Source: Nitrospirota bacterium (GTDB lineage: Bacteria > Nitrospirota > Thermodesulfovibrionia > SZUA-242). Taken from it: a stretch of DNA of 64,000 bases. This document shows positions 47,161 to 64,000 of the stretch, piece by piece; position 1 is the first letter of the stretch, and the number at the start of each line of letters is the position of its first letter. The translations under genes were made by a program, and so were the position numbers. The DNA lies in the NCBI GenBank assembly GCA_016212095.1, contig JACRHH010000005.1:62001-126000 (forward strand), given 5' to 3'. The notes under the pieces are model-generated. The model was not told the origin of the DNA and ran no database searches. It saw nothing but the letters and a program-made list of their open reading frames with translations.

Positions 47161-48330
47161 TTAAAACCTTGCCTGAACCATGAGTGACATGGTGTTGAAA
47201 TCCTGCACGCTTGCGCTTTCCGTGTCGAAGTCGGTCTTGGAATACTCAAGCGTAAGCTTTAGATCCTGTCCTTTGATGTAGTAGTTCAAACCGCCGGCAG
47301 TCCACCTGACCTGTTGGTTTTTAACTTCGTCAAGCTTTGCAAACGTCCACTCCTCAGCCCTGCCGAAGAACTGAACCTTGCCGACCATGTATCCGGCTTT
47401 CCAGAATGTGCCGTTCTTCTCTCCGTTGATTCCTTCGGCGTCGGCGAAACCGTTCAAACCGGCTCCTTTCATATCTGATTTCAGATATGAACCGGCAAGC
47501 GTGACGGTTCCGGCAGCAGACGGATACTCGAAGAATACGTCGTATGAATAGGCCTTGTAGTCAACCGCGCCGCTGGTGCTGTTGTAGATGGCGTTCTTTT
47601 CCTGCTCGTATGAGGCGCCGACCGTCAGCACCTTCTGTTCGCCCATGTATGTGCCCTGATATCCATATCCGTTTTCAGGATCGAGAAGCGAAAGGTGAAC
47701 GCGTCCGGAATAGCGGAGCCCGTCCTCGCGCTTTGCCGCATCCTTTTCGTTTCCGTCCATTGCGCCCAGCCTGTACTGCAACATGCCGTCAGCGATGTTG
47801 CCCCACATCACCACGCCGTAATCACGCGTGGCCTTGCCGGAGAAAGAACCGTTTCCGAAAAGCGATCTGTCGGCTGACAACGGGATGAAGCAGTGCTCAA
47901 GAATTTCGCGCGAGAGATTGTGCTTGATCTGGCCGACACGGAACTGCAATGCGTCTGCCGCCTTGTAGGTGATGTAGGCATCGATGATCGATACAGATTC
48001 TGATGTGGCGGTTGCATTCACGGTTGTGGGATAAGTCCTGTTGCCGCCCGCGCTTTCAAACTGAACGGCATAACCGATGTCGTCATTCATCTTGCCCAGA
48101 AAGCTCAGCCTGTTGCGGCGAAAATAAAAATCGGTTGTGTCGCCTGTTCCGTCAGGGCCGGAACCCGTGTCGCGCATGGATCCCACAAACTGAACCTGAT
48201 AGTCGATTTTGAGCGATCCGGCGTCTCCAACATCAATGGTCGGGCCTGCCGCAACCGATCCGACGCCCAATCCTAACAGTACAACTCCCCCCGTAACCAA
48301 CCCCAACAGACTCTTAGACAGCTTTCTCAT
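47161..48330 (-). CDS. Outer-membrane porin (phosphate-selective OprO/P-like)
   Basis: 389 aa. Signal peptide (KSLLGLVTGGVVLLGLGVGSVAAG), then alternating amphipathic strands typical of a 16-strand barrel, ending in Phe (MSLMVQARF). It has the pattern of OprO/OprP-like porins (FYFRRNRLSFLGKMNDDIGYAVQFE; LQFRVGQIKHNLSRE), which pass anions or, in metal reducers, occur beside cytochromes. The small Thr-rich lipoprotein follows. Upstream lies a gene-free 311-bp stretch carrying the terminator of the seven-haem gene. Its role in the cytochrome region is inferred from position only. Confidence 0.82.
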   Translation of the reverse strand: MRKLSKSLLGLVTGGVVLLGLGVGSVAAGPTIDVGDAGSLKIDYQVQFVGSMRDTGSGPDGTGDTTDFYFRRNRLSFLGKMNDDIGYAVQFESAGGNRTYPTTVNATATSESVSIIDAYITYKAADALQFRVGQIKHNLSREILEHCFIPLSADRSLFGNGSFSGKATRDYGVVMWGNIADGMLQYRLGAMDGNEKDAAKREDGLRYSGRVHLSLLDPENGYGYQGTYMGEQKVLTVGASYEQEKNAIYNSTSGAVDYKAYSYDVFFEYPSAAGTVTLAGSYLKSDMKGAGLNGFADAEGINGEKNGTFWKAGYMVGKVQFFGRAEEWTFAKLDEVKNQQVRWTAGGLNYYIKGQDLKLTLEYSKTDFDTESASVQDFNTMSLMVQARF

Positions 48331-48580
48331 TACTCCCTCCGTCCGATTTGATTATGGATGCCGTGAATGGCATAACAAGTTATCAAAGCCCTGAACCTGC
48401 TATTAACCGTGCAGCACGTGTCCACTCTGGAAAATGCCAGCAGTTACTGATGAAATGGACATGAACTGACGTTGGTTTTTATCATGGCTTTAATTACGGT
48501 TAATAAGCTAAATGAGAAGGTGAACATATGTCAACCTGAAAATGGAGCTTTAGGCGCAGTTGTTGCGATTTAAAAAAAAT
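48331..48580. other. Gene-free region before the porin, no confident promoter
   Basis: No ORF. A TGGAC...CTGCA element near 48410-48425 resembles a sigma-54 promoter but its GG-to-GC step is 11 bp, one short. Confidence 0.3.
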
Positions 48581-48609
48581 AAGCCCGCAGAGATCATGGC
48601 TGCGGGCTT
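48581..48609 (-). terminator. Intrinsic terminator of the electron-transfer operon
   Basis: AAGCCCGCAG and CTGCGGGCTT form a 10-bp stem with a 9-nt loop, followed on the minus strand by TATTTTTTTT. It lies 32 bp after the seven-haem gene and closes the five-gene run. Confidence 0.92.
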
Positions 48610-48641
48610 GTTAGGTATTCAAAAACAGTTAATGGAACTGA

Positions 48642-49328
48642 TTAGTATCCCCAAGTGCCTCCGGTTGTCTTGCCTTTGGTTTCATCATGACAACCCAGGC
48701 AGCCGTTGGTCTTCTTTCCAGCCTGATGATGACAGTCGAAGCAACTTGTTCCGCTTCCGGTTACCCCGGCGAAGTCGGCTCCATGACAGTTGATGTTAGC
48801 GCAACGTGATGGAGGATAGGTTTTGTAAATGCCGCCGTCCTTGAGAAAGCCATTGCTGTGCGATGAGTATCCGCTTGCATGCTTGTTGGTTTCGCTTGCA
48901 AGATGGCACTTGGTACATGCCGGGCCGCTTCCGGTAACTCCCTGGAATGTCGCGCCATGGCAGTTGGCATTGGAGCATGATGTGTTGCCGTTTGTGCCGA
49001 CATAGGCGCTGTGTTTTCCGGCAACAATAAGCTTTCCGCTCCCGTCGTACCAGTCAGCCGGATGAACCCTGGTGGTTCCGCCCAGATGACATTTTGTGCA
49101 GGAAACCTTCGCGTTTCCGCCGCCAAGGTCTGCTCCATGGCATTCGGCGCATTCCGCCACTCCCTCATCCTCAGCCGCGACAGCCGCCTTGTGCCCAGAC
49201 GGCAGCCAGCCCGCAGGATGTCCGTCGTCCGGATCGAATGTTTCGTTGTTAACCTCGCCGCATCCCGAAAAGGTGAAAAGCAAGGCAAACAAAACCGCGA
49301 ATACCGATATGTTTTTTACTTGTGACAT
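48642..49328 (-). CDS. Seven-haem cytochrome c lipoprotein
   Basis: 228 aa from ATG 49328 (GAGAGGT upstream). The signal peptide ends in the lipobox FSGC, so the protein is lipid-anchored. Haem motifs: CAECH, CTKCH, CSNANCH (CX4CH), CTKCH, CANINCH (CX4CH), CFDCH and CLGCH, seven in total, with two CX4CH of the type seen in Geobacter-like cytochromes. Two repeats of a NCHGA(T/D)F(Q/A)GVTGSG unit point to internal duplication. It is the last gene of the electron-transfer operon and overlaps the five-haem gene by 13 bp. Confidence 0.92.
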   Translation of the reverse strand: MSQVKNISVFAVLFALLFTFSGCGEVNNETFDPDDGHPAGWLPSGHKAAVAAEDEGVAECAECHGADLGGGNAKVSCTKCHLGGTTRVHPADWYDGSGKLIVAGKHSAYVGTNGNTSCSNANCHGATFQGVTGSGPACTKCHLASETNKHASGYSSHSNGFLKDGGIYKTYPPSRCANINCHGADFAGVTGSGTSCFDCHHQAGKKTNGCLGCHDETKGKTTGGTWGY

Positions 49329-49774
49329 TGCTTGCACCTCTCGTTGTTCTGGCGTCCGTGGCACTTGAAGCACGGAGCCGGATCGATCTTGCCGTCGATT
49401 CTGTGCTGCGTCAGATAATCGCCCCTGTGCGGCAATGTCCGCGCCGGAGAGTCCTTGAACATGTCGCTTGGCTTGAGCTCTTCATTACGGGCGTGGCAGT
49501 CCATGCAGAACGAGGTGTTGTGGCACTTGGTGCAGATCTTCTCCCTCTGCGCCGCCGCGAACGCGTGCTTCTTCATCTTGAAGTCAGTGGAATGGTTGAA
49601 CTCGCCCAAAGACCTTGCCTGCTCGATGTGGCAGTCGGTGCATGCCGGAGCGCCCGATACCTCGACCGGATGCTGTTTCGCCATGCTCTTGTTCTCGGCG
49701 CAGGCGTAAAGCCCCGCAAGCGCAACCGTCATGCTTACCGCAAGTACCGTATTTTTAACAATCGCGTTTTTCAT
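49316..49774 (-). CDS. Five-haem cytochrome c lipoprotein
   Basis: 152 aa from ATG 49774. The signal peptide ends with LYAC, a lipobox. Haem motifs: CTDCH, CTKCH, CMDCH, CFKCH and CKQCH, with several extra His as possible axial ligands. It resembles small periplasmic cytochromes (c3/c7 type) that ferry electrons near a porin conduit. It starts 5 bp after the porin gene ends and overlaps the seven-haem gene at its end, so it is translationally coupled in the run. Confidence 0.92.
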   Translation of the reverse strand: MKNAIVKNTVLAVSMTVALAGLYACAENKSMAKQHPVEVSGAPACTDCHIEQARSLGEFNHSTDFKMKKHAFAAAQREKICTKCHNTSFCMDCHARNEELKPSDMFKDSPARTLPHRGDYLTQHRIDGKIDPAPCFKCHGRQNNERCKQCHK

Positions 49775-49779
49775 GTCTG

Positions 49780-51021
49780 TTAAGCCCCCCACGGATTGGT
49801 TCCGAACTTGTATATGAATTTCAGGAAGCCCTTGACTTCCTTGTCGTAGTAGGGATTGTGCGAGTATTCGAAGTCGGCTGACGCCTTCGCCCTCTCCGAC
49901 AGCGCGTAACCGGCTGCGGCGGTGAGCGAATAGGCGGTTTTAACGCCGCTCACCTTCTCGTCGTAGATCACGGCAAGCGCGTCGATGGTTTTGTCGAGCT
50001 TGCCGCTCTTGCTGAAGCAGTAGGCGCGTATCTCGTTGTAGCGGTTGTCTTTTTCGTAGCCGTTCATGCGGTGCGCCGACGCTCCGGCCAGAACATCGCT
50101 GTCCTTGACATACGCAAACTTGGCGCCGTAGCGGTTGACCGTTCCAGCGCGGTCATACTCGTAGTTCTTGTAGTCAACAGAAACCGTGACATTTTCGTTG
50201 ACAGGATATTCCAGCTCGACGCCGGTTGTCAGGAGCGTTTCCTCCGTGTCGATGCCGCTTCCGCTTCCGGTTTTGGGGGCGAAGGCGTTTATCGAGGCGG
50301 CCTGAAAGTAGTTTGCGTAGTCGATCAACGAAACCTCGCCTCGCAGCTTGAGGCTGCCCAGACCGCCGACATTCAGGAAGTACGAATGCTCCATCCAGCC
50401 CGATGTTTCGGAATTGTAGGAAGACTGGCCGAGTATGGAAACCTTGTCCGCGGGACGGAGTGAAAGGTCTATGCCCATCTCCTCGCGATCGCCGGTTTTG
50501 TCGTTTTTCCCCTGCAGGAACGAAACGCCGACGGTGTAGAGCTTTTCGGCCTTGTGCGATATTCTGCCGCCGTAAATTAGCTCGCCGCCCGATTCGATGA
50601 TGTCACCGGCAAACGCCGACACGCCGAAACCGGCCTTCAGATCCGCGGTGGCATGAATTCCGTCGATGATTTCGGATGCGATTCCGTCGTGGACGAGAAT
50701 TCTTCCGGCATCCACCATAGCGTTTGCGTCGTCGCTTCTGAAGTTCAGATAGCCGTAGCGAAGATCGCCTTCGGATCGTTTGTCGCCGCTGTCGTCGGCA
50801 AGGTCAACGCGAAACCATCCGCCTGCGTGGAAAGAGAGCTTCTGACCGGCCATTTCCTCGATATTCAGGTCAAGATACTCGTAGAGCGGAGCGACCTTGC
50901 CGCCGCCCACCGTTTCCCGCGTCTGAACATAAGTGCGGGATTCGCCGTTTACGCTTGCGGCATAAGACGGCGTTACTGCCGGGAACAACATCAAAAGCAG
51001 AAAGACATACCTTCTAAGCAT
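49780..51021 (-). CDS. Outer-membrane beta-barrel of the cytochrome operon
   Basis: 413 aa. Signal peptide (VFLLLMLFPAVTPSYAA), then many amphipathic strands (LSFHAGGWFRVDL, DLRYGYLNFRS, VSILGQSSYNSETSG, LKLRGEVSLIDYANY) and a C-terminal FLKFIYKFGTNPWGA, as in outer-membrane porins. It is not a clear MtrB or OmbB match by eye; the combination with flanking cytochromes suggests a conduit barrel. It lies 104 bp after the fibronectin-III giant and 5 bp before the five-haem gene. If it is the channel, the five- or seven-haem lipoprotein could fill its lumen (inference). Confidence 0.78.
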   Translation of the reverse strand: MLRRYVFLLLMLFPAVTPSYAASVNGESRTYVQTRETVGGGKVAPLYEYLDLNIEEMAGQKLSFHAGGWFRVDLADDSGDKRSEGDLRYGYLNFRSDDANAMVDAGRILVHDGIASEIIDGIHATADLKAGFGVSAFAGDIIESGGELIYGGRISHKAEKLYTVGVSFLQGKNDKTGDREEMGIDLSLRPADKVSILGQSSYNSETSGWMEHSYFLNVGGLGSLKLRGEVSLIDYANYFQAASINAFAPKTGSGSGIDTEETLLTTGVELEYPVNENVTVSVDYKNYEYDRAGTVNRYGAKFAYVKDSDVLAGASAHRMNGYEKDNRYNEIRAYCFSKSGKLDKTIDALAVIYDEKVSGVKTAYSLTAAAGYALSERAKASADFEYSHNPYYDKEVKGFLKFIYKFGTNPWGA

Positions 51022-51125
51022 TCTTGCGGCCCCCCCTTTTAGGGTTAGATTTGGCCGCTAATTTACCATGACATGGCGCTGAATGTCCAAATAAAAAGTA
51101 TGACTTCAACCTCAATCCGCATGTT

Positions 51126-54100
51126 TTACGGCCCGCACGCCGTATCCCCCGTCTGCCAGGGCGGCATGGTTGCCGATACGGCGGCGCTGTACGGAGACCT
51201 GTCGTTGCCGCGGAACGCCCTCACCCTGTACTCGTAGGTCATGCCGGGCGAGATGGCCCGCGTGTCGGTGAACATTGTGACATTCGATGCTATCGTGGCG
51301 ATATTCACGAAGCCTCCGGTGAATATCTTGACTTCCACCTCGAAGCCGTCCTCGTCAGTGGCCGGATCGATCCATGAAAGAACCACCTTGCGAGAGCCGC
51401 TGGGCGTGGCTGTCAGAGCGGTTGGCGTGGCCGGATATGTCATATCGCAGGCTATGTTCGAATAGTCGGTGTCCCAGCCGCATACGGCGGTTTTTCCGGC
51501 GCGGATGCGGTAGCAGTACGTTGTCGATGCCGCAACCGCGCTGTCGGCGTAAGCAGTTGTTGCTCCGGCGGATGTCCCGACCTCGGCGAAGTTGGCGCAT
51601 CCGCCGCCGGTGTCAACGCAACGCTCAACCCGGAATACCGTTTCATCCTGATTGGTGTCTGTCCATGCAAGCTCCGTTTTGGTGTCTGCCGTGGCCGTCA
51701 CCGTCAGCCCCGACGGCGCGGAAGGCGAAGGCGTGGAAGCCGACGCGGAGGCGCTCCACGACGACGTCCAAGCCGGAGACGTCGAGCGTTCCGCCCTCAC
51801 GCGGTAGGTGTATCCGGTTCCGGCGCAGACCGAGTTGTCCTGATACGCGATTGCGTCCGCAGCCGCGTTTGCCGTGAATACGAAGTCAGAACATCCTGTC
51901 CCGGCGCATCGTTCTATCCTGAACCCGGTTTCCGAAACCGTGCTGTCTGTCCAGGTGAGCGTGATTCCGGTAGTGTTGTCAGCCACAGCCGAAACCGTTC
52001 CGGGCGGCACGATTGCTGTCGCGGCTGACGCCTCATTACTGAAAGGCGTTGCCCATGCGCACGACGCCGTCTTGTACGCCTGAATCTTGTAGGTGAAGAG
52101 AGTCGAATGCGGAAGGTTCTGGTCGTCGTATGACACCACGTTCTGGCCGGGCGTCTGTATCTGGGCGAAATCCTGACAGCCCGCCCCCGAACACCTGAAA
52201 AGCCTGAATCCTGTTTCGTCGCCGTTGCCGTCAGTCCATGTGACGTTTATCTTGTTCTCGTTCACGCGGGCAACCGTGATGACCGGCGTTGAGGGCGTCG
52301 GCATTAATGCGTCCGCGATGTTGCTCCATGCCGATGTCCAGACCGGGCCATCGGTTTTGTACGCCCTCACGCGGTAGCTGTAGGGCGTTGACGCGCAGAC
52401 GCCGTTGTCCTGATATGTTTTCACGTTCGCGGCTGTCGTGAATGTTGTCACGCCGGATGTGAAATCGCAGCCGGCGCCTGAGCATCGCTCGACTGTGAAG
52501 CCCGATTCCGTGTCGGTGTTGTCGTTCCACGAGAGATTAACGGTCGTGGTTCCCGAAACCGGCGCGGCAAGCCCCGACGGCGGAGCCGGCTGAAGCGTTG
52601 TTGCCGACGCGGTTGCGCTCCATGCGGTTTCCCACGGGCAGGCCGTCGTGGATGCCGCCTTGACGCGGTAGTTGTACGTTGTTCCCACATCGAGGCCGGT
52701 GTCGGAATATGCTGTTGCGTTGCCGGCTGTTGTGGCCACCGGCGCGAAATCGGAGCATCCGGCGTTCTTGCAGCGCTCGATCATGAAGCCGGTTTCGGAA
52801 ATGGAATTATCAAGCCAGGCAAGGTCAATCCGCACCTCGGAGACGGCGCTTGCCGTAAATGCCGACGGAACGCCCGGCGTTGCGGTTGTTGCCGACGCCG
52901 ACGCGCTTTCCGCGGTTGTCCATGCGCCAGACCGTGCCGCTTTCACCCGATAAGAGTAGGCGGTTGTGTTGCAGACGGATGTGTCGTTGAAAGTTGCTGT
53001 GTTGTGTCCGGCGGAGCCGATATCGGTAAAGTTCGAGCATCCAGTGCCTTCGCAGCGCTCGATGATGAAGCGCGTTTCGTTCTGAGTGTTGTCCGTCCAT
53101 GAAAGGTTTACCCGGTTTTCGCCGGAAGCCGCAGCCGCAAGCGCGGTTGGCGCTGAAGGAAGCGCGATGGTTGCGCACGCGGCTGAAGTTGCCGCGCTTG
53201 TCCAGAAGCCGGAACGCTCCGCTTTCACTCGATAGCAGTAGGTTTCGCCCGCTGTTACGGCGGTATCGGTGTAGCTTGTTGCGTTGGAAGCGGCGGTGTA
53301 GGTGACCAGCGATGAAAAATCGCACGACGCGCCGGCGCAGCGCTCAATGATGAAGCCGGTTTCGGTGGCCGACGTGTCTGTCCAGCTCACGGTTACACGA
53401 TCCGTCTTGTGCGATGTGGTGTCGAGCGAAAGCTGAACCTGCATGTCGGAAAGCGCCGCTTGCGCGTTTGTGAGCGTGACCGGACGCCGGAACTCCCACG
53501 TGGACGCGCCCAGGCTGTACAATCCGCGTTCAACCGCGCCGACAGACTGCGCCGGTTCTTGCACGGCATATTTCATCACCAGCAGATGATCGAACTTCAC
53601 GTTGTGGGTGTAGTTCTTCACGGCTATCCTCATCGGTGAGTCGGTGAAGCTGGTCGTTTCGCGAAGGCTTGTCCACGCGCCGCTTGAACCGGCCCGCGAG
53701 AAATATCCCGCGCCGCTTGCGCGAAGCTCGATCTTCACGTCGTATGCGGTGTTGGCCGAGTAGTACTGCGAAACGCCGTATGCATTCGTCTTTTCCTGCG
53801 TGTACCACTGGTTGTTGTAGGTCTTCAGGCCGTAGATCGTGTTCGGATTCACTGCGGCGCTCGTGACCGGGCTCTGGTTTATGTCCCAGCCGATCAGCAT
53901 TCCGCCGCCTGTATTGTACGGCGTGAGCCGCGCCTGAATCTTCCTGTCCGCCGCGCGGTTGAATGTTGCCTGCGAAATCAGCGCGTTGTTGTAGCCGTCG
54001 GTGAAGCCCTTGCCCTTCAGGTACAGGCCGTTGTTCTGCATGAACACGTCGTCCGGGTTGAGAGACACCCACTTCGATGCGTTTATCGTTGTTCCCTGAA

Positions 54101-57100
54101 AATCGTCGAAGAATTCGAAGGTTGCGCTTCCGTTTGAAACGGACGCCGCCGCAGGGTTTCCCCAGTGCAGGTATATGTCTTTGGTGGCTGACGGGATCGA
54201 CGGCACTCTGGCCCATATCTTCGTGGCTGTTGTTCCGCATCCCGACTCTATCCAGTGCGGCAGAAGCGTTGCGCCGTCGGAATCGGTGATTCTTATGTCG
54301 CTGCAAATTCCGTCGTAACCCGCTGCCGCCGCCGGGGTTCCGGGCGCTGAAATGCTGGTTGTTGCGCCCGATGTGTTTCCGGCAATCTCCCAGCCGCACG
54401 AGGCTGTCTTGAACGTTTTCAGGCGATAGCAATAGTCTGTCGAAAAATTCAGACCCGAATCCTGATACGAAACGGTTGGCGTGCTGATCTTGAAATTGTC
54501 GAAAACGGTTGTCATCGATGCCGTGCCGGACTGCGAAGCCGACACCTCGACTGGCTGCCCGGAGAGCGCTGAGCCTGACTGCGACGTTCCGAGCCACTGC
54601 GAGCTTGAGGTGTCCCAGTATTGCGCGTAGACGGTTGTTCCAACGCGGGCTATCCTGAACTTGCCGGAATTGTCGGCAGTGGTGACAACATAATTGCCTG
54701 AAACGCCGCTCATCATCACCTCGTACCGGTAGCGATGAACGTTCGCTTCGGTTATGCGCTCGACGCGCGCGTAGTTCAACGCGCCGGTTGGGCTGTCCGG
54801 CAGAACGAATTCAAGCCGTGCAAGCGCGTTTTTCGGCGTTGTTGCCGATGCGCCGGACGGCAGGCTGTAATCCACCTGAATGTCGAAATCGCCGGTGATT
54901 GCCTCCGGATGCGTAGCCATCAGCTTGTTTGTGACCGCAACGGTTCCCGGCGTCTGCATCTGCACGCCCCCGCCGGAGGCCGCGACGCTTCCGGCTCCGC
55001 CTGTAATCGACGTGCTCCATGCAAGCGCGTTTATGCCGCTGTCGAAGCCGTCATTTCGGGCAAGCCGTGCGGCTTCCGCGAATGGAAGCGAACCTGCGGC
55101 GCACGCTTCGGCTTTGCGCTCGATGATGAAGCCCGACTCATCCGTCACGCTGTCCGTCCAGGAAAGGTCGATGCGGGTTTCGCTTGCCCGCGTTGCAGAC
55201 AGATTGTTGGCGTAGGACGCGGCGGGCGTTGTTACATCGGCTGTTGCGGCGCTCCGGTTAACCGGCCAAAGCGTGTCTCCGGTCTTTGCGGCGTAAACGC
55301 GGTATCTGTACGTGCTTGACTGACAGGCTGTTGTGTCCGTGTGGCTTGTGGCGTTTGCGGCAGCCGCAAACGTTGTCACCGTCGAGAAATCGCAGGACGC
55401 TCCTTCGCACCTCTCGATCACGAAGCCGGTTTCCGACGCGAAGTTGTCAACCCATGTCACTCTGATGTCCGTCGTGTTCAGGGCAACAGCCGTCACCGTG
55501 TCCGGCGTGCCAACCGTGGTGGAAGCCGAAGCGGTTGCGCTTGCCATTTCCCATGAATTATTGGCGGTTTTGTATGCGACCACCCGGTATGTGAAGGCGC
55601 TGGAATGGGCAAGCGGCTGATCCGTAAATGATCCTGACGATCCGGCGGCGAATGTTCCGATTGGCGCGTAAGCGCCTGAAATGGCGCAGGCGGCTGAATC
55701 GCCGGGGCATCGCTCAAGCCTGAATCCGGTTTCGTCGGCGTTGGTGTCTGTCCAGTTGAGGCGAATAGCGGTCTCATTCTGGCGCGTCGCGACAAGGGTA
55801 GGAGTTGTCGCGGCCAAGGCCTGAACCTGCGCGGCGCTTGAATACTGAGTCACCCACTTTCCGGCGCGATAGGCGTTTATCCGGTAGCGGTAAACCGTTC
55901 CCTGAACCGCGTTGTTGTCAAGGAACGCTTGCAGGTTCGGCGAAACATTGAACAATGTCTTCATCGAGAAATCGCAGGAAGTTCCGGCGCATCGCTCTAT
56001 TGTGAAACCGTCCTCGTAGGTGGTTGTGTCCGTCCATGTCAGCAATACTTCGGTTGTGCCGGAAGATGTTGCCGATTGCAATGAGGGAGCGGGCGGCGTG
56101 GTTGTGTTGATGCCAAGCTCGATCCGTCGCGAAAGATCGCCGGTGTTTTTATACGCCTGAACGCTGAAGCAGTACTGGGAATTCGTGTTCAGTCCCTCGT
56201 CCGAATAGCTGTTTGAATTCGCCGGCAGATCAACCACATGCGCCCACGCGCCGCCAGATCCGCAAGCTCCTGTCATGCGCTCCACGCGGTATCCGTCTTC
56301 CGAAAGGCTGTTGTCGCTCCATGAAAGATCGGCCCTCGTGTAATGCGACGAGCCCGTCAGCGGAGCCGGCGGCTGAACGCCGTCAACCGCGCACCGGAAA
56401 ACCAGATAGTCGGCGGCATCGCTTGCGTCGCGGGTGTAACCGGCCACATACGCCTCGCCGAACCGGTTCGCCGCCGCTGTCCACGCGTCGTCATCCTTGC
56501 CTGCCGCTCCTGCGTAAATCGTCGCGCCGGTCATGCTGCCTGAATAATCGTATTTCACCGCGATGGCGTCCATGCTGCCGCCAGTGCCGCCTGTAAGAGA
56601 GCTTCCGGCGATGCAGACGCTGCCCGAAAGGTCGATCGACATGGCCGAAACCCTGTCGTCGCTTCCAAGGCGGTCGAGCGTCTTGTGCCAGACAAGCGCG
56701 CCGCTCGCCGTATAGCGCACGATATGGATATCGTTGTTTCCTGGGCCGACGTACTCGGTTCCGGCAACAACGATCTCGCCGTTAACCGGATCGATTGCAA
56801 TTGCCGACGGCCTGTCGTTTCCGCCCGCGCCGCCGCCGTGAACGTCGCTCCAGATCACCGCGCCGGTTGAGCCGTTGTATTTTACGGTGTAGAAAGCCTC
56901 GAATCCGGAGGCGTTAACCATGAAACCGGTAACATACACGTCGCCGGAAGCGTCAACAACCAGCCCCACGGTCTGATCGTTTCCGTTGCCCGGCCCGTTC
57001 CAGATCACCGGCTGGGGCCAGAGCATCGCGCCATTGGCTCCGTTGTATTTCGCCACGAACCAGTCGTAATTCGCGCCGTTATGAACGTAGCCCGACACGA

Positions 57101-59351
57101 AGATATTGCCGGCCGCGTCGAACGCCACGGCAGCCGGATAGTCGTTTCCGACGTGGTCGTAAGGCGTGGCGGCCCATGTGCGCGTCCGGTTCCCGTCGTA
57201 TTTGATAACGTAGATGTCATCGTTGAAGGCCACGTTTCGTCCGTAGCCTATCACCACTGTATTGTTCGAGCCGTCGGAGGCCACGGCCACCGAGTCAGAC
57301 CTGTCGTCGTCGCCAGCCGGGCCGTTGTAAACGGCATTGCCCAGTTCCGCGCCGTCCGTTCCCGAATACCAGACCGTGTAGATGTCGTTGGTGTTTCTTG
57401 CGCCGCCGCCGTAAAGCGAGGAATAGCCGGTTACAACGGCATTGCCTGTGCCTGTCACCGCAACGGACGATGCGGCGTCAACCTGATCGTCAACATCGTT
57501 GTAGCTCATGCTCCATATCGCGGAGGCGCTTGTCCTGTTAATCTTGCGCGTGAAATAGTCGAGGCTGCCTGTGTTCGAGAAGCTGTATCCGGTGACAACC
57601 GGATTGCCGTCTGAGTCAACTGCAACCGACGCGGCGTAGTCCTCGCCGCCGTCCGGCCCGGCGTATGTGTGAACCCATGTCGGCGCTGTGTAGGCGATGA
57701 TCGTGGTTCTGGCTGTCGCCTCGTTGCTCCAGCCCGAATTTCCGGCGCTATTGCTGAATGCCGCAATGCGGTAGTAGTAGCGCAGATCAGGCGCAACTGT
57801 ATTGTCGATAAACTCCACTGCGTTGGCCGAAGCGGTTCCGGCAGACTGCCACACGCCTGCTTCGCCGATCTTGCGTTCGATCAGAAAGCCGTCCTCGACT
57901 GCCGAGTTGTCCGTCCACGCAAGCCGCACCGATGTTGTCGTGAGCGTTGCAGCCGTCAGTCCGGACGGCTTGTCTATTGCGCCCGGATCAAAAACCGCAA
58001 CGCGGAAATCGTAGTCCGTTGCCCCTGAAGTCCATGCATCGGACCATCCGGCAACTGCCACGCCGTTTGGCGTAACGGCAACCGCCACAGCCCTGTCGCC
58101 CTTTCCGGCTGCGTCGTGGATGCTGTTCCAGAGCACGGCTCCGCTTGCGCGCGAGATTTTGGCGGCGCGGAAATCGTCAAACCCCGAAGCCCCGTTGTTT
58201 GTGTGTCCGGCAACGAAAATATCGCCGGACTGGCCGACGGCAACCGATGCCGCGATGTCGGAATCGCCGCCCGACAGATCGGGCGTGACCTCCCATGAGG
58301 GCGCGCCTGTCGCGCCATCGTATCGGCCAACAAAGAAATCGTTGCCGGTTGCCGGACTAAAGCTGTAACCCGCTACGTAAACATATCCGGATGCATCGAT
58401 GGCGATGGACGAAGGCTCGTCGTTATGCCCCCTGTTGAATGGCGGACGTTCCCACCTGGCGGCGCCGCCTGATGACGCAAGCAGTTTTGCGACATAAATA
58501 TCGCGATCCGTTCCGTTATGCAGGTAACCGGCAACCGCCACGTTTCCGTCAGTGTCGAAGGCAAGCGCAGTTGCCCTGCTGTCGCCGGAGCCGGTTTTGC
58601 GGGCTTCCCAAACCGGATTGCCGTTGAAGTCGTATTTTCGCGTGTAGATGTCGAAGTTCGACGCGCCGCGCGATTCTCCGGTTGCGGCAACGCCGTCGGG
58701 CCCGGCTGCAACGGCGTAAATCCGGTCGTGTCCGCCGCCCGCGCCCCCGTATGTCTTTGCCCACATTGGCGTTCCGTCGGGGTTCGGGCCGGAGGATGCG
58801 TATTTGATGAGGATAAAATCGTCATCGCCGCCGGACGACTGGGAATAGCCGCCTACGTATATGTTGTTCAGGCTGTCGATGGCGATGGAAGATGCGTAAT
58901 CGTTTCCGCCCGCCGCGCCGTTCCATGAATGCCGCCATAGCAGCGCGCCGGTAACGCCAGCGTATTTTTCGGTGTGAATGTCGTAGTTGATGCCGTTCCA
59001 TGCGTATCCGGTCACGATGACATCGCCGTTTGAATCCGTAACCACGGCTGTTGCCGAATCGTTTCCGCCCGCCTTGTCGTAATCGGCAGACCATTGGACT
59101 CCGGTTCCGTCGCTTTTGAACTTGACGGTGTGGAAATCCTGTGACACGCCCAGGTGATAGCCAGTCACGATAACGCCGCCGGATGCATCCGAAACGGATG
59201 CCAGCGCCTCCTGTTTTCCGGCAAGCGGCGCGGCGTATGTTCCGGCAAGATCGCCGCCGGCGCCGTGGGCTGCTCCGGCGAAGACCGGCAATATCATGGC
59301 AAGCGCCGCAACGGTGAAACGCATTATGGTTTTGATATCGAATTTCATCAT
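51126..59351 (-). CDS. Giant secreted protein: two propeller-type repeat sets and about 14 fibronectin-III domains
   Basis: 2741 aa from ATG 59351 (GGAGGAAAC upstream). Signal peptide near MRFTVAALAMILPVFAGAAHG. Residues about 40-470 hold eight SBBP-type units (GGVIVTGYHLG, VYVAGYSF and others), a first fibronectin-III domain follows, then a second set of eight (PVVTGYSFS, VYVTGFMV). From about residue 1000 on there are some 13 more fibronectin-III domains, most with the motif GFxIERCxGxxCDF, giving a recurrent CX4C pair. An inserted DUF2341-like domain and a lectin-like stretch (about 1450-1800) interrupt the series. No membrane anchor or haem motif. It is likely an extracellular scaffold or adhesin, downstream of the giant cytochrome by 17 bp. 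Confidence 0.88.
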   Translation of the reverse strand: MMKFDIKTIMRFTVAALAMILPVFAGAAHGAGGDLAGTYAAPLAGKQEALASVSDASGGVIVTGYHLGVSQDFHTVKFKSDGTGVQWSADYDKAGGNDSATAVVTDSNGDVIVTGYAWNGINYDIHTEKYAGVTGALLWRHSWNGAAGGNDYASSIAIDSLNNIYVGGYSQSSGGDDDFILIKYASSGPNPDGTPMWAKTYGGAGGGHDRIYAVAAGPDGVAATGESRGASNFDIYTRKYDFNGNPVWEARKTGSGDSRATALAFDTDGNVAVAGYLHNGTDRDIYVAKLLASSGGAARWERPPFNRGHNDEPSSIAIDASGYVYVAGYSFSPATGNDFFVGRYDGATGAPSWEVTPDLSGGDSDIAASVAVGQSGDIFVAGHTNNGASGFDDFRAAKISRASGAVLWNSIHDAAGKGDRAVAVAVTPNGVAVAGWSDAWTSGATDYDFRVAVFDPGAIDKPSGLTAATLTTTSVRLAWTDNSAVEDGFLIERKIGEAGVWQSAGTASANAVEFIDNTVAPDLRYYYRIAAFSNSAGNSGWSNEATARTTIIAYTAPTWVHTYAGPDGGEDYAASVAVDSDGNPVVTGYSFSNTGSLDYFTRKINRTSASAIWSMSYNDVDDQVDAASSVAVTGTGNAVVTGYSSLYGGGARNTNDIYTVWYSGTDGAELGNAVYNGPAGDDDRSDSVAVASDGSNNTVVIGYGRNVAFNDDIYVIKYDGNRTRTWAATPYDHVGNDYPAAVAFDAAGNIFVSGYVHNGANYDWFVAKYNGANGAMLWPQPVIWNGPGNGNDQTVGLVVDASGDVYVTGFMVNASGFEAFYTVKYNGSTGAVIWSDVHGGGAGGNDRPSAIAIDPVNGEIVVAGTEYVGPGNNDIHIVRYTASGALVWHKTLDRLGSDDRVSAMSIDLSGSVCIAGSSLTGGTGGSMDAIAVKYDYSGSMTGATIYAGAAGKDDDAWTAAANRFGEAYVAGYTRDASDAADYLVFRCAVDGVQPPAPLTGSSHYTRADLSWSDNSLSEDGYRVERMTGACGSGGAWAHVVDLPANSNSYSDEGLNTNSQYCFSVQAYKNTGDLSRRIELGINTTTPPAPSLQSATSSGTTEVLLTWTDTTTYEDGFTIERCAGTSCDFSMKTLFNVSPNLQAFLDNNAVQGTVYRYRINAYRAGKWVTQYSSAAQVQALAATTPTLVATRQNETAIRLNWTDTNADETGFRLERCPGDSAACAISGAYAPIGTFAAGSSGSFTDQPLAHSSAFTYRVVAYKTANNSWEMASATASASTTVGTPDTVTAVALNTTDIRVTWVDNFASETGFVIERCEGASCDFSTVTTFAAAANATSHTDTTACQSSTYRYRVYAAKTGDTLWPVNRSAATADVTTPAASYANNLSATRASETRIDLSWTDSVTDESGFIIERKAEACAAGSLPFAEAARLARNDGFDSGINALAWSTSITGGAGSVAASGGGVQMQTPGTVAVTNKLMATHPEAITGDFDIQVDYSLPSGASATTPKNALARLEFVLPDSPTGALNYARVERITEANVHRYRYEVMMSGVSGNYVVTTADNSGKFRIARVGTTVYAQYWDTSSSQWLGTSQSGSALSGQPVEVSASQSGTASMTTVFDNFKISTPTVSYQDSGLNFSTDYCYRLKTFKTASCGWEIAGNTSGATTSISAPGTPAAAAGYDGICSDIRITDSDGATLLPHWIESGCGTTATKIWARVPSIPSATKDIYLHWGNPAAASVSNGSATFEFFDDFQGTTINASKWVSLNPDDVFMQNNGLYLKGKGFTDGYNNALISQATFNRAADRKIQARLTPYNTGGGMLIGWDINQSPVTSAAVNPNTIYGLKTYNNQWYTQEKTNAYGVSQYYSANTAYDVKIELRASGAGYFSRAGSSGAWTSLRETTSFTDSPMRIAVKNYTHNVKFDHLLVMKYAVQEPAQSVGAVERGLYSLGASTWEFRRPVTLTNAQAALSDMQVQLSLDTTSHKTDRVTVSWTDTSATETGFIIERCAGASCDFSSLVTYTAASNATSYTDTAVTAGETYCYRVKAERSGFWTSAATSAACATIALPSAPTALAAAASGENRVNLSWTDNTQNETRFIIERCEGTGCSNFTDIGSAGHNTATFNDTSVCNTTAYSYRVKAARSGAWTTAESASASATTATPGVPSAFTASAVSEVRIDLAWLDNSISETGFMIERCKNAGCSDFAPVATTAGNATAYSDTGLDVGTTYNYRVKAASTTACPWETAWSATASATTLQPAPPSGLAAPVSGTTTVNLSWNDNTDTESGFTVERCSGAGCDFTSGVTTFTTAANVKTYQDNGVCASTPYSYRVRAYKTDGPVWTSAWSNIADALMPTPSTPVITVARVNENKINVTWTDGNGDETGFRLFRCSGAGCQDFAQIQTPGQNVVSYDDQNLPHSTLFTYKIQAYKTASCAWATPFSNEASAATAIVPPGTVSAVADNTTGITLTWTDSTVSETGFRIERCAGTGCSDFVFTANAAADAIAYQDNSVCAGTGYTYRVRAERSTSPAWTSSWSASASASTPSPSAPSGLTVTATADTKTELAWTDTNQDETVFRVERCVDTGGGCANFAEVGTSAGATTAYADSAVAASTTYCYRIRAGKTAVCGWDTDYSNIACDMTYPATPTALTATPSGSRKVVLSWIDPATDEDGFEVEVKIFTGGFVNIATIASNVTMFTDTRAISPGMTYEYRVRAFRGNDRSPYSAAVSATMPPWQTGDTACGP

Positions 59352-59368
59352 GTATGTTTCCTCCGCTC

Positions 59369-62300
59369 TTACCACGGTGTCACGTTGTTCCATTTGACGT
59401 CATTGGGCCATCCGCCCGTACCCGGATCGCTTCCGTGGCAATCGAGGTTAGGCGGATTGGACGAACCTGAACCTGCGGGATTCTGGCCCATCGGGTATCC
59501 GCCGCGCGACCGTGGATTGCAGTACGAACCGCCGCCCGACGGCGTTCCGCCGCTTGCCACGTTGCCGCGATGGTTGGAGTCGAGGCAGTTGGTCTGCATC
59601 AGCCGGGGCAGGCCGGAGTTGTGCGGCTGGTGGCATTTCGAGCACGGGAAGGCGTGCTCGCGCTCCGTGTCTCCTGCGTTCCAGCCCCAGCCCTTCACCG
59701 ACCGGTGAATGCGCTCCCGGCTCTTCCATGCTAGGCTCGATGTCGCAGCCAGAGAAACATCGGTTGTGAGGTTTGCCTTTGGGTGACACCTCAGGCAGAG
59801 ACCGGCGAACTGATCCTCGGTCTCGTTTATGCGCTTTGTGTTGTCCGATATTACGACCGGATTGCCGAAAGTGCTCCTGTCGGTTCGCCATGTGAGGTTC
59901 GACTGGCTGACCTGCCCGGAAGCCGCGGGCTGGGTCTTGTCGTCCTGATACGGCGTGGTCAGCCATGTGCCTTTCAGGAGCGGCAGCGCATACGACTGGT
60001 TTGCGCCGAGCGTGGGGCTGACGCCGTGCGGATCGTGGCACGGGGTGCAGAGGCCGTTAATCTGCTGTCTTGCGGCGTTTCCAAGGGTTGACGATGCCTT
60101 GAAGTGTCCGCCCATTATCGTTGCCTTGTTCGCCCTGTACGCAAAACGCGCTGTCGAGCCTTTAGTTCCCTGCCCGAAGCGCGAGCTGTCTTTGTAGCCC
60201 ATGATCGGCGCTGTAGCGCCGAATGTGGACTGGTAGCCCCACGGCTTGGTTCCGGACGTCTGCGTTTCGTGGCAGTCGAAGCATAGCGCCGCGCCTGAGG
60301 CGAACGGGTTCACGCCGGAAGTGTCGGTGTTGGCGGCAGGCTTGTACGTCATGGCGTAGCCGCCCTTTCCGGCCTGCGTCTCCTTCAGGTTCGCACCGTT
60401 GAACGTTCCGTTATAGGTTGCGTAGCTCGATGTCACGCCCGTTGCCTTCGATCCGTGCGAGCTGTGGCAGTCGTAGCACTGAACCGCCTGCGAGCCGCCC
60501 CGTGTGTTCGGGATTGTTCCCTCGTATCCGGTTGTGGCGCTCCATCCGCCCTGATTGGCGGTGGCGTTGCCGTGGGCCGAGAAAGCCTTGGTCACGGTGT
60601 CTTTTTTTGTGACGCGCGGGTTGGCCGTGGATGAATACTTCCCCCACGACGCGGTTCCGGTTTGGGAATATCTTGCCGCCACGCTTGTTCTGTCCCAGGC
60701 GTACTGCGCCGGGGTCTGGCAGTCCGGATTGTCCGGATCGACAATCTCAAACGGTTTGGTGTTCTTGTTCTGGTCGCTGTGGCAGCCAAGGCAAACCTGC
60801 GTGACCTTCGACACCTCGGTTCGCTCGTCCACGGTTCCAACCTTCGAGGCCGTGAATGTTACAGCGGTTGCGCCATCCTGATATGTAACCGGTCTTGCGC
60901 CAGGCCCCCACACAACCAGATTCACCGGAGCGCCCGATGTGGATGTGTGCTCTTTGTAGTTGTAGCCGCTGTGATACGCGGTGTTGATGATGCCAAGCTC
61001 CGTGGCTTCCCAATGGCAGGCGTAGCAGTGCTTGTTCGTAACCTTGCCGCCCTGAACGTGATGCGAGTTGCCCTGGAAGTTCGTGCCGATTCCGAACTGG
61101 CCCATGACGTCCATGCGCATGTTGATCACGCCGTTGTGGCACTTCGTGCAGTCGCGTGGAAGCCCGAACGCCGTGTGGCGCGGAACAGGCCTGTCGGCAT
61201 GGCATGTGTTGCAAGACTTTCCGGAGCCGTGGCTGTCGCTCCATCGGTGTTCGTGGCAGGTTGTGCAGACGCGGCCCTCGTTGTGGCTGTCGCCGTAGTC
61301 GGCCTTGTAGTGCTGGCCCGGCGCGGTGTGGCAGACGTTGCATATGCCGGTGTACGGAGCCGAGCTTTTCGCGTAGTCGGTTCCGATATTCTTCCGCGTG
61401 AAAATCACGTCGCGCTGCCCGGTCGGCACGCCGTAGCTTCCGTCGGTTGCGGTCGAGACACTGTTTTGAACCATGTAAATGTTATCGTCGCCATGCGGGT
61501 CGTGGCAGTCCCAGCAGAACTTGCCGCCCTTCCAGACACCGGTCGATTCATATCCGGCGTAATGCTTGTAGCCGAAATGAATCGAGGTGGCCCGCGCCGT
61601 GGTAGCCTTTATCTCGCCGGTTCCGGGATCGTAGCCGAGCTTGTACTGCGGCCCGGTGTGGCATTTCTCGCACTGGCCGTTGCGCTCGTCTTCGTGGCAC
61701 TGAAGGCAGACGCCCATCATTTTATATGAGTTTCTCACGTCCGCCTTCTGTTGCGCCGTCCATGCCGCGTCCATGGTTGTGTTGTGAATGGCCGCGTTTG
61801 TCGAATGGCAGGCAGAAACGCAGGATGTTGCGCCGCCTGTGTAGCCGGTGTGATCCTGCGAAAGCGGCGGACTGGCGAGGTTTGCAAGCTGCGGCGCGAG
61901 CGAGAACGATGAATTATGGCATCCCATGCACTCGGCGTCTGTTCGTTCCATGTGGCAGAAGACGCATTCCTTCTCGAACCGCTTTTCGAACTGCTGATGT
62001 ATCTTCAGGCGAAACGGGTTGGACGCTGTTCCATGCAAAACTCCGTTGTCGTGGCAGTACCAGCAGGGGTTTCCGGGAAAACCCGCCGCCGGATTCCCCG
62101 ATTTCGGATACGCGCCGGATGCGAGCGGACGCCCGTGTCCGCTTGTCTCCCACTGCGTCATGTTGATTTTAGCGCGAACGCCGTTGCCGTAGGCGAAATC
62201 GTCAACGTCGGCGCCGGTTGTTCCGTGGCACGACAGGCAGATAACCTCGCCGTTAACCGTATCGCCCCACTGCGGATCGCCGCCGGTGTGGCAGACGGTG

Positions 62301-64000
62301 TTGGAGCATCGCTTGGTAACCGGGTTATACGTGCCTCCGTCGCTTAAAACCACATCCTTGGTGCGGTTTACGTGATAGGCGGGGTTGATGTGGCTCACCT
62401 CGCTCATGCTGCCCGTCGGCCTGCCGTTAACGTGGCAGTCTGTGCAGCTTCCGTTTATTATCGTGGCGTTGTGGCACTTGTCACACGGGAAATTCGTTAC
62501 CAGATGGCGCACATGCGAGTTTGCCCGCTCGGTTCCGGCTCCGGTGCTGGCGTACATCGGCATGGCGCTTTTCCATTCATCGCCGGCTGCCCAAACCGTT
62601 CGCCCGTCTGCGTGGCACTGCAAACAACTGCCCTGCTCGTGGCCGTGACATGTGTTGCAGTGTGTCCGTCCGCTTGTCCAGGCAAACGGGCGAACCTGCG
62701 GATTCACTGTCGTTCCGTCGCTGTGGCAGTAGACGTTGTCGCAAGTTTTGGTGTTGGCGTCGTATGACGGCGCGGGCTTTCCCACGATATTCCAGTCGGA
62801 CGCCATCGCGACGTCCACTGTCTGATTGACGTGCTTTGTGTAATCGCCGATCTCGTTCGATGAATTCACCGTGGCCGCATGACAGTATCTGCATGGGAAC
62901 CGGCGAACCCAGCCGGTGCCAACCAGCCTGTCGTGGCCGCCGGTGCTCATCACGCTTGTTTCAACTCCGGGCCGTCCGCTGTGGCACAAATCGCACGGCG
63001 CGTGGCCCTGTGTTTCAGCAGTCAGCCAGGCAGCCGGAGTGTTTGGCGCGCCGCCCTTGCCGTCTGAATGGCAGGCGGTTGACGCGCATGAGGCATCAGT
63101 TGAATTGAACGACCCGCCAGCCGCGAAAACGATGTCCTTGGTTGCGTTTGCATGCATCGCCTGATTCTTTATCACGGAGCTTCCGGTGACGGTTGCGCTG
63201 TGGCATTTCTCGCACGGGAAGGCGTATGTGCCCGCGTTTGTATGTTTTGCGTGGCGTCCGCTCAAGTCCGTTAGCGCGCCGCCGGTGTCGTGGCACGAGC
63301 CGCAGTTCATCGACGGGCCGTCCCAAACTGGCGCGCGGAAGACGTTTGCCTTGCCGCGCGGCTCGGCGTTTGAATGGCAGTAGATGTTCGAGCAGGTTTT
63401 TGTGCCGGTGTTGCTGACTGTCGTATTGGCTTCGCCGGTATTGTAGAGCGCGGTGGCCTGGCCGTCGTATGCGCCGCCGCGTTTCGCGCCTCCGGCAACC
63501 GAGAAGCCTAGAGTGACGATTCTGCCGTTATTATGGGTTGCGCCCGCGCCGACGCTTCCGTTATGGCAGTTGTCGCATGTTGCGCCCTTGGTGGTTACAT
63601 GAAAATTATGCGCGCCCGGCGTTGCCGAGCCGGTTGGGGCGGGATTTGATACCAAGGTTTCGGGGCTGACAGGCGGAAATCCGTGGCAGACCGAGCAACT
63701 CGGCTTGAATCCCTGCGAATGCTTGTGGCATTCCATGCAGTCAACGCCGTTGTTGTGGTCGAGCGCGGCCTGTGCGGCGGTGTTGTAGCGATGGAAATTC
63801 GTGATGCTGTGGCAGACTTCGCAGACTTTTGTGGAATTGGCATGGCCGCCGGTGTCGTCGCCCATGTTGTCTGGCGCGATGTGCGTGGATTGGAATGTTA
63901 CATTTGCGGCAGGCGAGCCTGTCGAATTCCACGGCTGACCGTCCGGAGTTGAGATAACGGCGCGCATGTTCTTGATATTGGTAGAGCCGGAACCGTGGCA
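59369..64000 (-). CDS. Giant multihaem cytochrome c, partial (35 or more haem motifs)
   Basis: 1543 residues are visible; the N-terminus lies beyond the right edge, and the visible start already contains the end of another CH motif. I count 35 haem motifs: 30 CX2CH, four CX4CH (CSNIYCH, CASTACH, CDNVYCH, CSNTVCH) and one CX3CH (CVSACH). The first half repeats a GTxAFPCEKCHSATV unit; the second half has longer haem-poor linkers (for example GTPSGGGSYCNPRS). The C-terminus ends DVKWNNVTPW with no barrel. It should be exported, and at this size probably placed on the cell surface as an electron conduit or reservoir. It is the first visible gene of the run. Confidence 0.93.
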   Translation of the reverse strand, partial: CHGSGSTNIKNMRAVISTPDGQPWNSTGSPAANVTFQSTHIAPDNMGDDTGGHANSTKVCEVCHSITNFHRYNTAAQAALDHNNGVDCMECHKHSQGFKPSCSVCHGFPPVSPETLVSNPAPTGSATPGAHNFHVTTKGATCDNCHNGSVGAGATHNNGRIVTLGFSVAGGAKRGGAYDGQATALYNTGEANTTVSNTGTKTCSNIYCHSNAEPRGKANVFRAPVWDGPSMNCGSCHDTGGALTDLSGRHAKHTNAGTYAFPCEKCHSATVTGSSVIKNQAMHANATKDIVFAAGGSFNSTDASCASTACHSDGKGGAPNTPAAWLTAETQGHAPCDLCHSGRPGVETSVMSTGGHDRLVGTGWVRRFPCRYCHAATVNSSNEIGDYTKHVNQTVDVAMASDWNIVGKPAPSYDANTKTCDNVYCHSDGTTVNPQVRPFAWTSGRTHCNTCHGHEQGSCLQCHADGRTVWAAGDEWKSAMPMYASTGAGTERANSHVRHLVTNFPCDKCHNATIINGSCTDCHVNGRPTGSMSEVSHINPAYHVNRTKDVVLSDGGTYNPVTKRCSNTVCHTGGDPQWGDTVNGEVICLSCHGTTGADVDDFAYGNGVRAKINMTQWETSGHGRPLASGAYPKSGNPAAGFPGNPCWYCHDNGVLHGTASNPFRLKIHQQFEKRFEKECVFCHMERTDAECMGCHNSSFSLAPQLANLASPPLSQDHTGYTGGATSCVSACHSTNAAIHNTTMDAAWTAQQKADVRNSYKMMGVCLQCHEDERNGQCEKCHTGPQYKLGYDPGTGEIKATTARATSIHFGYKHYAGYESTGVWKGGKFCWDCHDPHGDDNIYMVQNSVSTATDGSYGVPTGQRDVIFTRKNIGTDYAKSSAPYTGICNVCHTAPGQHYKADYGDSHNEGRVCTTCHEHRWSDSHGSGKSCNTCHADRPVPRHTAFGLPRDCTKCHNGVINMRMDVMGQFGIGTNFQGNSHHVQGGKVTNKHCYACHWEATELGIINTAYHSGYNYKEHTSTSGAPVNLVVWGPGARPVTYQDGATAVTFTASKVGTVDERTEVSKVTQVCLGCHSDQNKNTKPFEIVDPDNPDCQTPAQYAWDRTSVAARYSQTGTASWGKYSSTANPRVTKKDTVTKAFSAHGNATANQGGWSATTGYEGTIPNTRGGSQAVQCYDCHSSHGSKATGVTSSYATYNGTFNGANLKETQAGKGGYAMTYKPAANTDTSGVNPFASGAALCFDCHETQTSGTKPWGYQSTFGATAPIMGYKDSSRFGQGTKGSTARFAYRANKATIMGGHFKASSTLGNAARQQINGLCTPCHDPHGVSPTLGANQSYALPLLKGTWLTTPYQDDKTQPAASGQVSQSNLTWRTDRSTFGNPVVISDNTKRINETEDQFAGLCLRCHPKANLTTDVSLAATSSLAWKSRERIHRSVKGWGWNAGDTEREHAFPCSKCHQPHNSGLPRLMQTNCLDSNHRGNVASGGTPSGGGSYCNPRSRGGYPMGQNPAGSGSSNPPNLDCHGSDPGTGGWPNDVKWNNVTPW

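Follow-up and report, generated by a model that had tools for sequence, protein, structure and literature searches.

Gene Content and Boundaries of the Locus

The DNA that we analyzed, hereafter the window, is a stretch of 64,000 nucleotides (C37:62001-126000) from a draft genome of 2.97 Mb that belongs to a bacterium of the Nitrospirota, and toward its right edge the minus strand carries a run of five genes whose presence is real. In the direction of reading, these genes encode a giant secreted multihaem cytochrome (59369..64000 within the window), a propeller/fibronectin-III (FN3) giant of 2,741 aa (51126..59351), an outer-membrane beta-barrel of 413 aa (49780..51021), a pentahaem c-type cytochrome of about 152 aa (49316..49774), and a lipoprotein cytochrome of 228 aa (48642..49328); the first two of which we designate the pair, and the remaining three the trio. 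The intergenic distances are 17 bp between the two giant genes (59369/59351), 104 bp between the FN3 giant and the barrel (51126/51021), and 5 bp between the barrel and the pentahaem cytochrome (49780/49774), with the last two genes sharing 13 bp (49316/49328). Downstream from the trio lies an intrinsic terminator (48571..48609, minus strand), composed of a stem at 48581-48609 of 10 bp and -17.4 kcal/mol followed by U8, which structure was missed by the automatic scan, probably because its loop of 9 nt exceeds the 3-8 nt permitted there. The open-reading-frame coordinates thus agree throughout with an earlier note on this DNA, in which the same positions, distances, overlap, and terminator had been given.

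The sequence past the right edge places the start codon of the giant cytochrome at C37:126174 (equivalent to window 64174), that is, 174 bp beyond the window; and the gene directly upstream resembles a cysteine desulfurase, so that the run seems to begin at the giant cytochrome. No terminator was found between the pair and the trio at this locus, and a single transcript comprising the five genes is plausible from the arrangement. Within the 104-bp gap, about 40 bp upstream of the barrel, there is nevertheless a promoter-like site (51060..51089, minus strand; TGGACA-N18-TAAATT, with a TG before the -10), and therefore the trio may have a promoter of its own, this site being a weak one (9/12 match) of a quality expected about 6 times in a scan of 18 kb. 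Searches for Rfam RNAs near the operon, riboswitches included, and for tandem repeats at the DNA level found none.

Other genes related to electron transfer occur in the vicinity. A porin of the ExtI family (window 47161-48330, minus strand; NF040900, 417 bits against a cut-off of 150) lies 311 bp after the last gene of the trio and is followed by a membrane-anchored 8-haem cytochrome (44852-46759) with weak matches to ExtN/ExtO, the two being a candidate for another electron-transfer unit beside the trio. To the left of the window, C37:31000-47500 and 59393-60442 contain frames for giant CxxxxCH/CxxCH cytochromes (2076, 1675, 1179, and 1037 aa), and further such frames are present in contigs C15 (1856 aa) and C2 (1307 aa).

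The Giant Cytochrome and the FN3 Giant

The complete giant cytochrome is a protein of 1,601 aa with 31 CxxCH, 1 CxxxCH, and 4 CxxxxCH motifs, a signal peptide (MANPLLFVLFYITAFAASASA), and no lipobox. The part inside the window contains 30, 1, and 4 of those motifs, respectively—the 30 CxxCH to be compared with only 0.2 expected by shuffling—so that the previous count of at least 35 haem motifs was accurate, the total being 35 in the window and 36 in the entire protein. Within a set of 43 complete giant cytochromes, 28 of the 31 CxxCH motifs of the window protein, along with the CxxxCH and 3 of the 4 CxxxxCH motifs, are kept in at least 90% of the sequences; and 36 histidines outside the motifs, which number would correspond to about one axial ligand per haem, are kept in at least 80%. 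This conservation of haem motifs and axial ligands argues for an electron-transfer role of the protein. All 43 have, in addition, a WNxVTPW-like motif near the C-terminus, which in the window (59369-59400) reads WNNVTPW. A conserved "MEQ..." at the overlap of the two giant genes was considered as a start site and discarded, since it is a frame-shifted echo of the WNNVTPW codons. We found no solved structure matching the giant cytochrome by sequence. Enlarged homologues, with 42-46 CxxCH motifs in 2,403-2,566 aa, exist in Geobacteraceae (loci L130 and L104).

Regarding the FN3 giant, the Pfam matches (fn3, SBBP, DUF2341, and DUF1583), a delta-60 repeat, the domain map, and the AlphaFold model bear out its previous description as a propeller/fibronectin-III protein of 2,741 aa. 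The protein comprises two SBBP propellers of about eight blades each, 15 FN3 domains, and one DUF2341/concanavalin-like block, in the following order: a signal peptide, propeller 1 (residues ~40-450), an FN3 domain, propeller 2 (~560-985), five FN3 domains, a DUF1583/FN3- and DUF2341-like block (~1,440-1,960), eight FN3 domains, and a C-terminus ending in GDTAC. Residues 1-1130 were modeled with a pLDDT of 79.5, and a Foldseek search with these first 1,130 residues retrieved propeller and FN3 proteins such as CylK and the ectodomains of ROS1/Sevenless. The FN3 giant has no recognizable anchor; and a near-terminal cysteine, within a GDxTC ending, is observed in most of its homologues.

Scanning the GTDB species genomes with an alignment of the giant cytochrome yielded 62 loci, whose hosts include Nitrospirae MAGs, many Geobacteraceae MAGs, Geobacter sp. 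OR-1 (with three), Geotalea toluenoxydans, Geothermobacter hydrogeniphilus, and Desulfobulbaceae, among others. Of the giant-cytochrome genes, 45 have an intact 3′ end, and for every one of these, belonging to Nitrospirota, Geobacterales/Desulfuromonadales, and Desulfobulbaceae, the next gene downstream encodes an FN3 giant; 40 of these pairings having been recognized by script and five by reading (L088, L105, L106, L108, and L124), these latter because their ORF-start overlap was larger than the script permitted. The window locus has the same constitution, a WNNVTPW-ending giant cytochrome and then a propeller/FN3 giant, and a second copy of the pair resides in contig C16 of the source genome. 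A profile of the FN3 giant matched in 16 of the 229 genomes of the class, with near-full-length proteins directly behind a giant cytochrome in G008, G026, G032, G216, G229, G226 (two), and G196. Farther in the 3′ direction, carboxypeptidase-regulatory-like and right-handed beta-helix proteins often occur elsewhere: at seven loci (L066-L069, L074, L113, and L118) the pair is followed by a conserved set of genes encoding a right-handed beta-helix protein of ~570 aa and CarboxypepD_reg proteins of ~680 and ~280 aa. Neither the barrel nor the pentahaem cytochrome found a match at the 62 loci, where the flank passes beyond 29 of the FN3 giants; and four barrel-sized proteins that follow FN3 giants proved, upon reading, to be outside the barrel family.

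The pair is accordingly conserved, widespread, and apparently undescribed, no paper on it having been found in the literature searched, which comprised the main texts of articles available without subscription. Its position beside a known kind of conduit suggests that the pair works extracellularly, in the passage of electrons to minerals, to electrodes, or to other cells. Giant cytochromes of unexplained role are common in Geobacter-like genomes, and the constant pairing of one family of them with a propeller/FN3 giant—once beside a conduit—furnishes a testable role for both proteins, while the two genes together can serve to mark surface electron transfer in genomes of Nitrospirota and Desulfobacterota.

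The Trio: Barrel, Pentahaem, and Lipoprotein Cytochrome

The barrel belongs to a conserved family without a match in Pfam or NCBIfam. Its AlphaFold model (pLDDT 82, pTM 0.71) has 22 predicted strands and short loops, with neither a plug domain nor a long constriction or inward loop, and from standard barrel geometry we estimate a C-alpha diameter near 40 Å, which would leave room for a 16-kDa cytochrome. The best Foldseek matches are likewise outer-membrane barrels—the FimD/PapC ushers, Occ porins, and AlgE, at TM-scores of about 0.3-0.58—with MtrB absent from the 50 best.

The pentahaem cytochrome has 5 CxxCH motifs, a lipobox (LYAC), and, in 17 homologues, exactly five invariant histidines outside the motifs, as expected of bis-His ligation of its five haems. 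The absence of the lipobox from some homologues favors a periplasmic position, and the protein is probably periplasmic or inserted into the barrel. The only match by sequence to a solved structure was judged to be a chance one. The lipoprotein cytochrome, with an SGC lipobox (FTFSGC) and 5 CxxCH plus 2 CxxxxCH motifs, is the probable surface end of the conduit; the proteins in the equivalent position in relatives have 5-23 haem motifs. The two small cytochromes had therefore been rightly described as having five and seven haems.

A profile of the barrel matched in 27 of the 230 genomes of the class, and at most of the barrel loci that we read the order is the same: barrel, pentahaem cytochrome (~150 aa), lipoprotein cytochrome. 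Contig C2 of the source genome carries a second trio in that order. A few divergent barrels (e.g., in G038, G209, G210, G177, and contig C6 of G026) adjoin other, larger cytochromes. Among 396 genomes from the phylum the pentahaem profile matched in 53, in many of them only weakly; it also matched in 23 of the 29 named genomes with a giant cytochrome and in 93 of 141 Geobacterales genomes. The adjacency of the barrel to the two cytochromes is conserved in two phyla, in both of which a lipoprotein of about 10 haems with an MtrC/MtrF domain (MtrC/OmcA) is often encoded just upstream of the trio. With a barrel, an adjoining multihaem cytochrome of presumably periplasmic location, and a redox lipoprotein, the trio is by its sequence features a known kind of outer-membrane electron conduit, for which electron transfer across the membrane is predicted.

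Linkage of the Pair and the Trio

The earlier note had regarded the five genes as one system and had proposed a search for their order in other genomes. Such a search recovered each module in its own right, but never the five genes together: of about 20 genomes having both the pair and the trio, the two are adjacent at the window locus only. They are on separate contigs in G026 (C18/C90), G032 (C21/C7), G196 (C33/C47), G228 (C18, C82/C175), and G236, as well as, judging from a comparison of the lengths of their best pentahaem contigs and giant-cytochrome contigs, in the further Geobacterota/Desulfuromonadales genomes with both, except for G234 and G239, where at least 30 kb lies between them on one contig. 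The second copies in the source genome are apart as well (the pair in C16, the trio in C2). In profile searches two other genomes of the source family contained neither the barrel nor the FN3-giant module, and no giant pair was present at the further trio loci read in the phylum. A 427-aa protein after the FN3 giant in G228, considered as a second junction, is a thioredoxin/TPR protein and not a barrel. In relatives the pair and the trio are both conserved yet stand apart, and one conserved system of all five genes is therefore not supported. A lack of linkage in relatives, which the earlier note had named as counting against its proposal, holds for the five-gene combination, though not for either module within itself. 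The run consists, as judged by these comparisons, of two separable conserved modules, and their combination is an observation from one genome, whose union of the two is suggestive.

Proposed Electron Path and Alternatives

The interpretation that we favor, to which we assign a probability of roughly 0.6, is that the window locus joins two modules: an Ext-type conduit and, as its surface partner, the secreted pair of giant cytochrome and adhesin; the co-transcription, physical contact, direction of electron flow, and adhesin role being what we infer from the arrangement. The wide 22-strand barrel would be threaded or capped on the periplasmic side by the bis-His pentahaem, with the lipoprotein cytochrome sitting at the cell surface. 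The giant cytochrome, with its about 31-36 haems, would carry electrons over long distances or act as a capacitor, and the propeller/FN3 giant would scaffold it and attach it to mineral, matrix, or partner cells. Electrons would then pass from periplasmic cytochromes to the pentahaem, the lipoprotein cytochrome, the giant cytochrome, and an external acceptor, or in the reverse direction. The main argument for the pair as the external partner is positional, in that the MtrC/OmcA-domain lipoprotein is often upstream of trios and here that place would be filled by the pair. The three secretins of the source genome offer a possible export route. Of the proposal that the locus might represent a new variety of extracellular electron transfer, the part that is supported is thus a conduit adjoining a giant secreted cytochrome and an adhesin-like giant, whereas a single conserved five-gene system is not. 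It is also possible, though we hold this broader proposition only tentatively, that the pair is an undescribed cross-phylum apparatus for extracellular electron transfer, in which a propeller/FN3 protein without haems serves to scaffold or aim a cytochrome of 31-36 haems, the invariant WNxVTPW tail is a docking or export signal, and the window locus is the only one found at which the apparatus is wired to an outer-membrane conduit.

An alternative would be that the trio is a separate Ext-type conduit, transcribed from a promoter of its own, which happens to stand beside an unrelated pair, with no joint function. The conservation of each module without the other adjoining, the promoter-like site in the 104-bp gap, and the single genome from which the junction is known are all consistent with chance neighbors; yet both modules are co-directional c-type cytochrome systems of the envelope or the exterior with no terminator between them, and at other loci, too, the trio is often directly preceded by a large cytochrome, for which reasons we consider mere coincidence rather unlikely. 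Less probable still would be a mainly structural pair, forming an extracellular matrix or filament, with the FN3 giant as its adhesin and the cytochrome as a charge store, to which any conduit would deliver the electrons. That possibility would accord with the three copies of the pair in Geobacter sp. OR-1 and with the carboxypeptidase-regulatory-like and beta-helix proteins that, with no conduit, often follow the FN3 giant elsewhere; but it leaves the trio at the window locus unexplained, and the conserved haem motifs and axial ligands favor an electron-transfer role.

Finally, the barrel could be no more than a nutrient porin, with the cytochromes serving a soluble periplasmic respiration, which case, according to the earlier note, would have spoken against the proposal. 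The lack of a Pfam or NCBIfam match, and Foldseek results consisting of ushers and substrate-specific porins, MtrB being missing among the first 50, would permit such an assignment. Nevertheless, the 22 modeled strands without a plug or a long inward loop support something other than an ordinary nutrient porin of 16-18 strands, and the adjacency to the pentahaem and lipoprotein cytochromes is conserved in two phyla, so that we regard this alternative as very improbable.

Comparison with Known Systems

The joined modules of our preferred reading resemble MtrCAB/OmcA in having a barrel with a putatively inserted multihaem cytochrome and a surface cytochrome, but MtrA is a decahaem protein where the trio has a pentahaem, and the barrel lacks a match to MtrB, whose own barrel has 26 strands as against the 22 predicted here. 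As to the previous assertion that no named system has this content, it holds for the pair within the literature searched, but must be qualified for the trio, which resembles ExtBCD/ExtEFG (PMC6148476). In G. sulfurreducens the ExtB-C-D and ExtE-F-G orders are porin, pentahaem, and 12-haem cytochrome, with surface partners that are often replaced (PMC6148476), and ExtB and ExtE have been modeled as a single porin family (PMC7399161). The likeness is one of gene order—barrel, pentahaem lipoprotein, larger cytochrome—and of haem number in the second protein; to which the replaceable surface cytochromes may be added, along with the extra decahaem lipoprotein upstream of some extE clusters, as at many trio loci. 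By contrast, ExtD and ExtG have 12 haems where the third trio protein has 5-7, the upstream ExtA is absent from the window locus, which adds the giant cytochrome and the FN3 protein, and at the Geobacterales trio loci no 12-haem gene that would complete an ExtABCD four-gene unit was recognized just before the barrel. With a third cytochrome of 5 CxxCH plus 2 CxxxxCH motifs instead of 12 haems, we liken the trio to Ext and do not class it as a member.

The novelty of adding a large cytochrome and an adhesin to a conduit is tempered by several precedents. Like the window run, the PCC3 clusters (He et al. 2017, PMC5566968) comprise a porin, a very large surface cytochrome (34 haems being the median in PCC3), and a periplasmic cytochrome; but this last is large in PCC3 (median 21 haems, versus 5 in the run), the conserved inner-membrane protein of PCC3 with 5 TM segments has no counterpart in the run, and the run has an FN3 giant besides. 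The OetABI clusters of ANME-partner bacteria include OetF, a cytochrome with fibronectin domains (PMC10553843), and a 26-haem/16-haem operon includes a six-bladed beta-propeller protein (PMC5539420). Both resemble the window locus in combining a conduit with large extracellular cytochromes, the one through the fibronectin domains of OetF and the other through a propeller beside giants; though, going by the published descriptions, the FN3 domains of OetF are inside the cytochrome and not in a separate cytochrome-free protein, and the four-gene core of the latter operon (propeller, two cytochromes, and isomerase) differs from the pair. In Geoalkalibacter a 24-haem FN3 cytochrome adjoins a 38-haem cytochrome (PMC12016550). 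Among our own loci, five from Geobacteraceae (L157, L178, L179, L181, and L185) contain the trio and then an NHL-propeller/Ig protein of ~923 aa, a small lipoprotein, and a 20-22-haem cytochrome. Although the propeller protein and the cytochrome there come after the trio, the former being missed by the FN3-giant HMM and the latter being distant (about 100-160 bits), these loci have the trio in common with the window and, as the window does, encode in the same co-directional run both a propeller protein and a giant CxxxxCH/CxxCH cytochrome.
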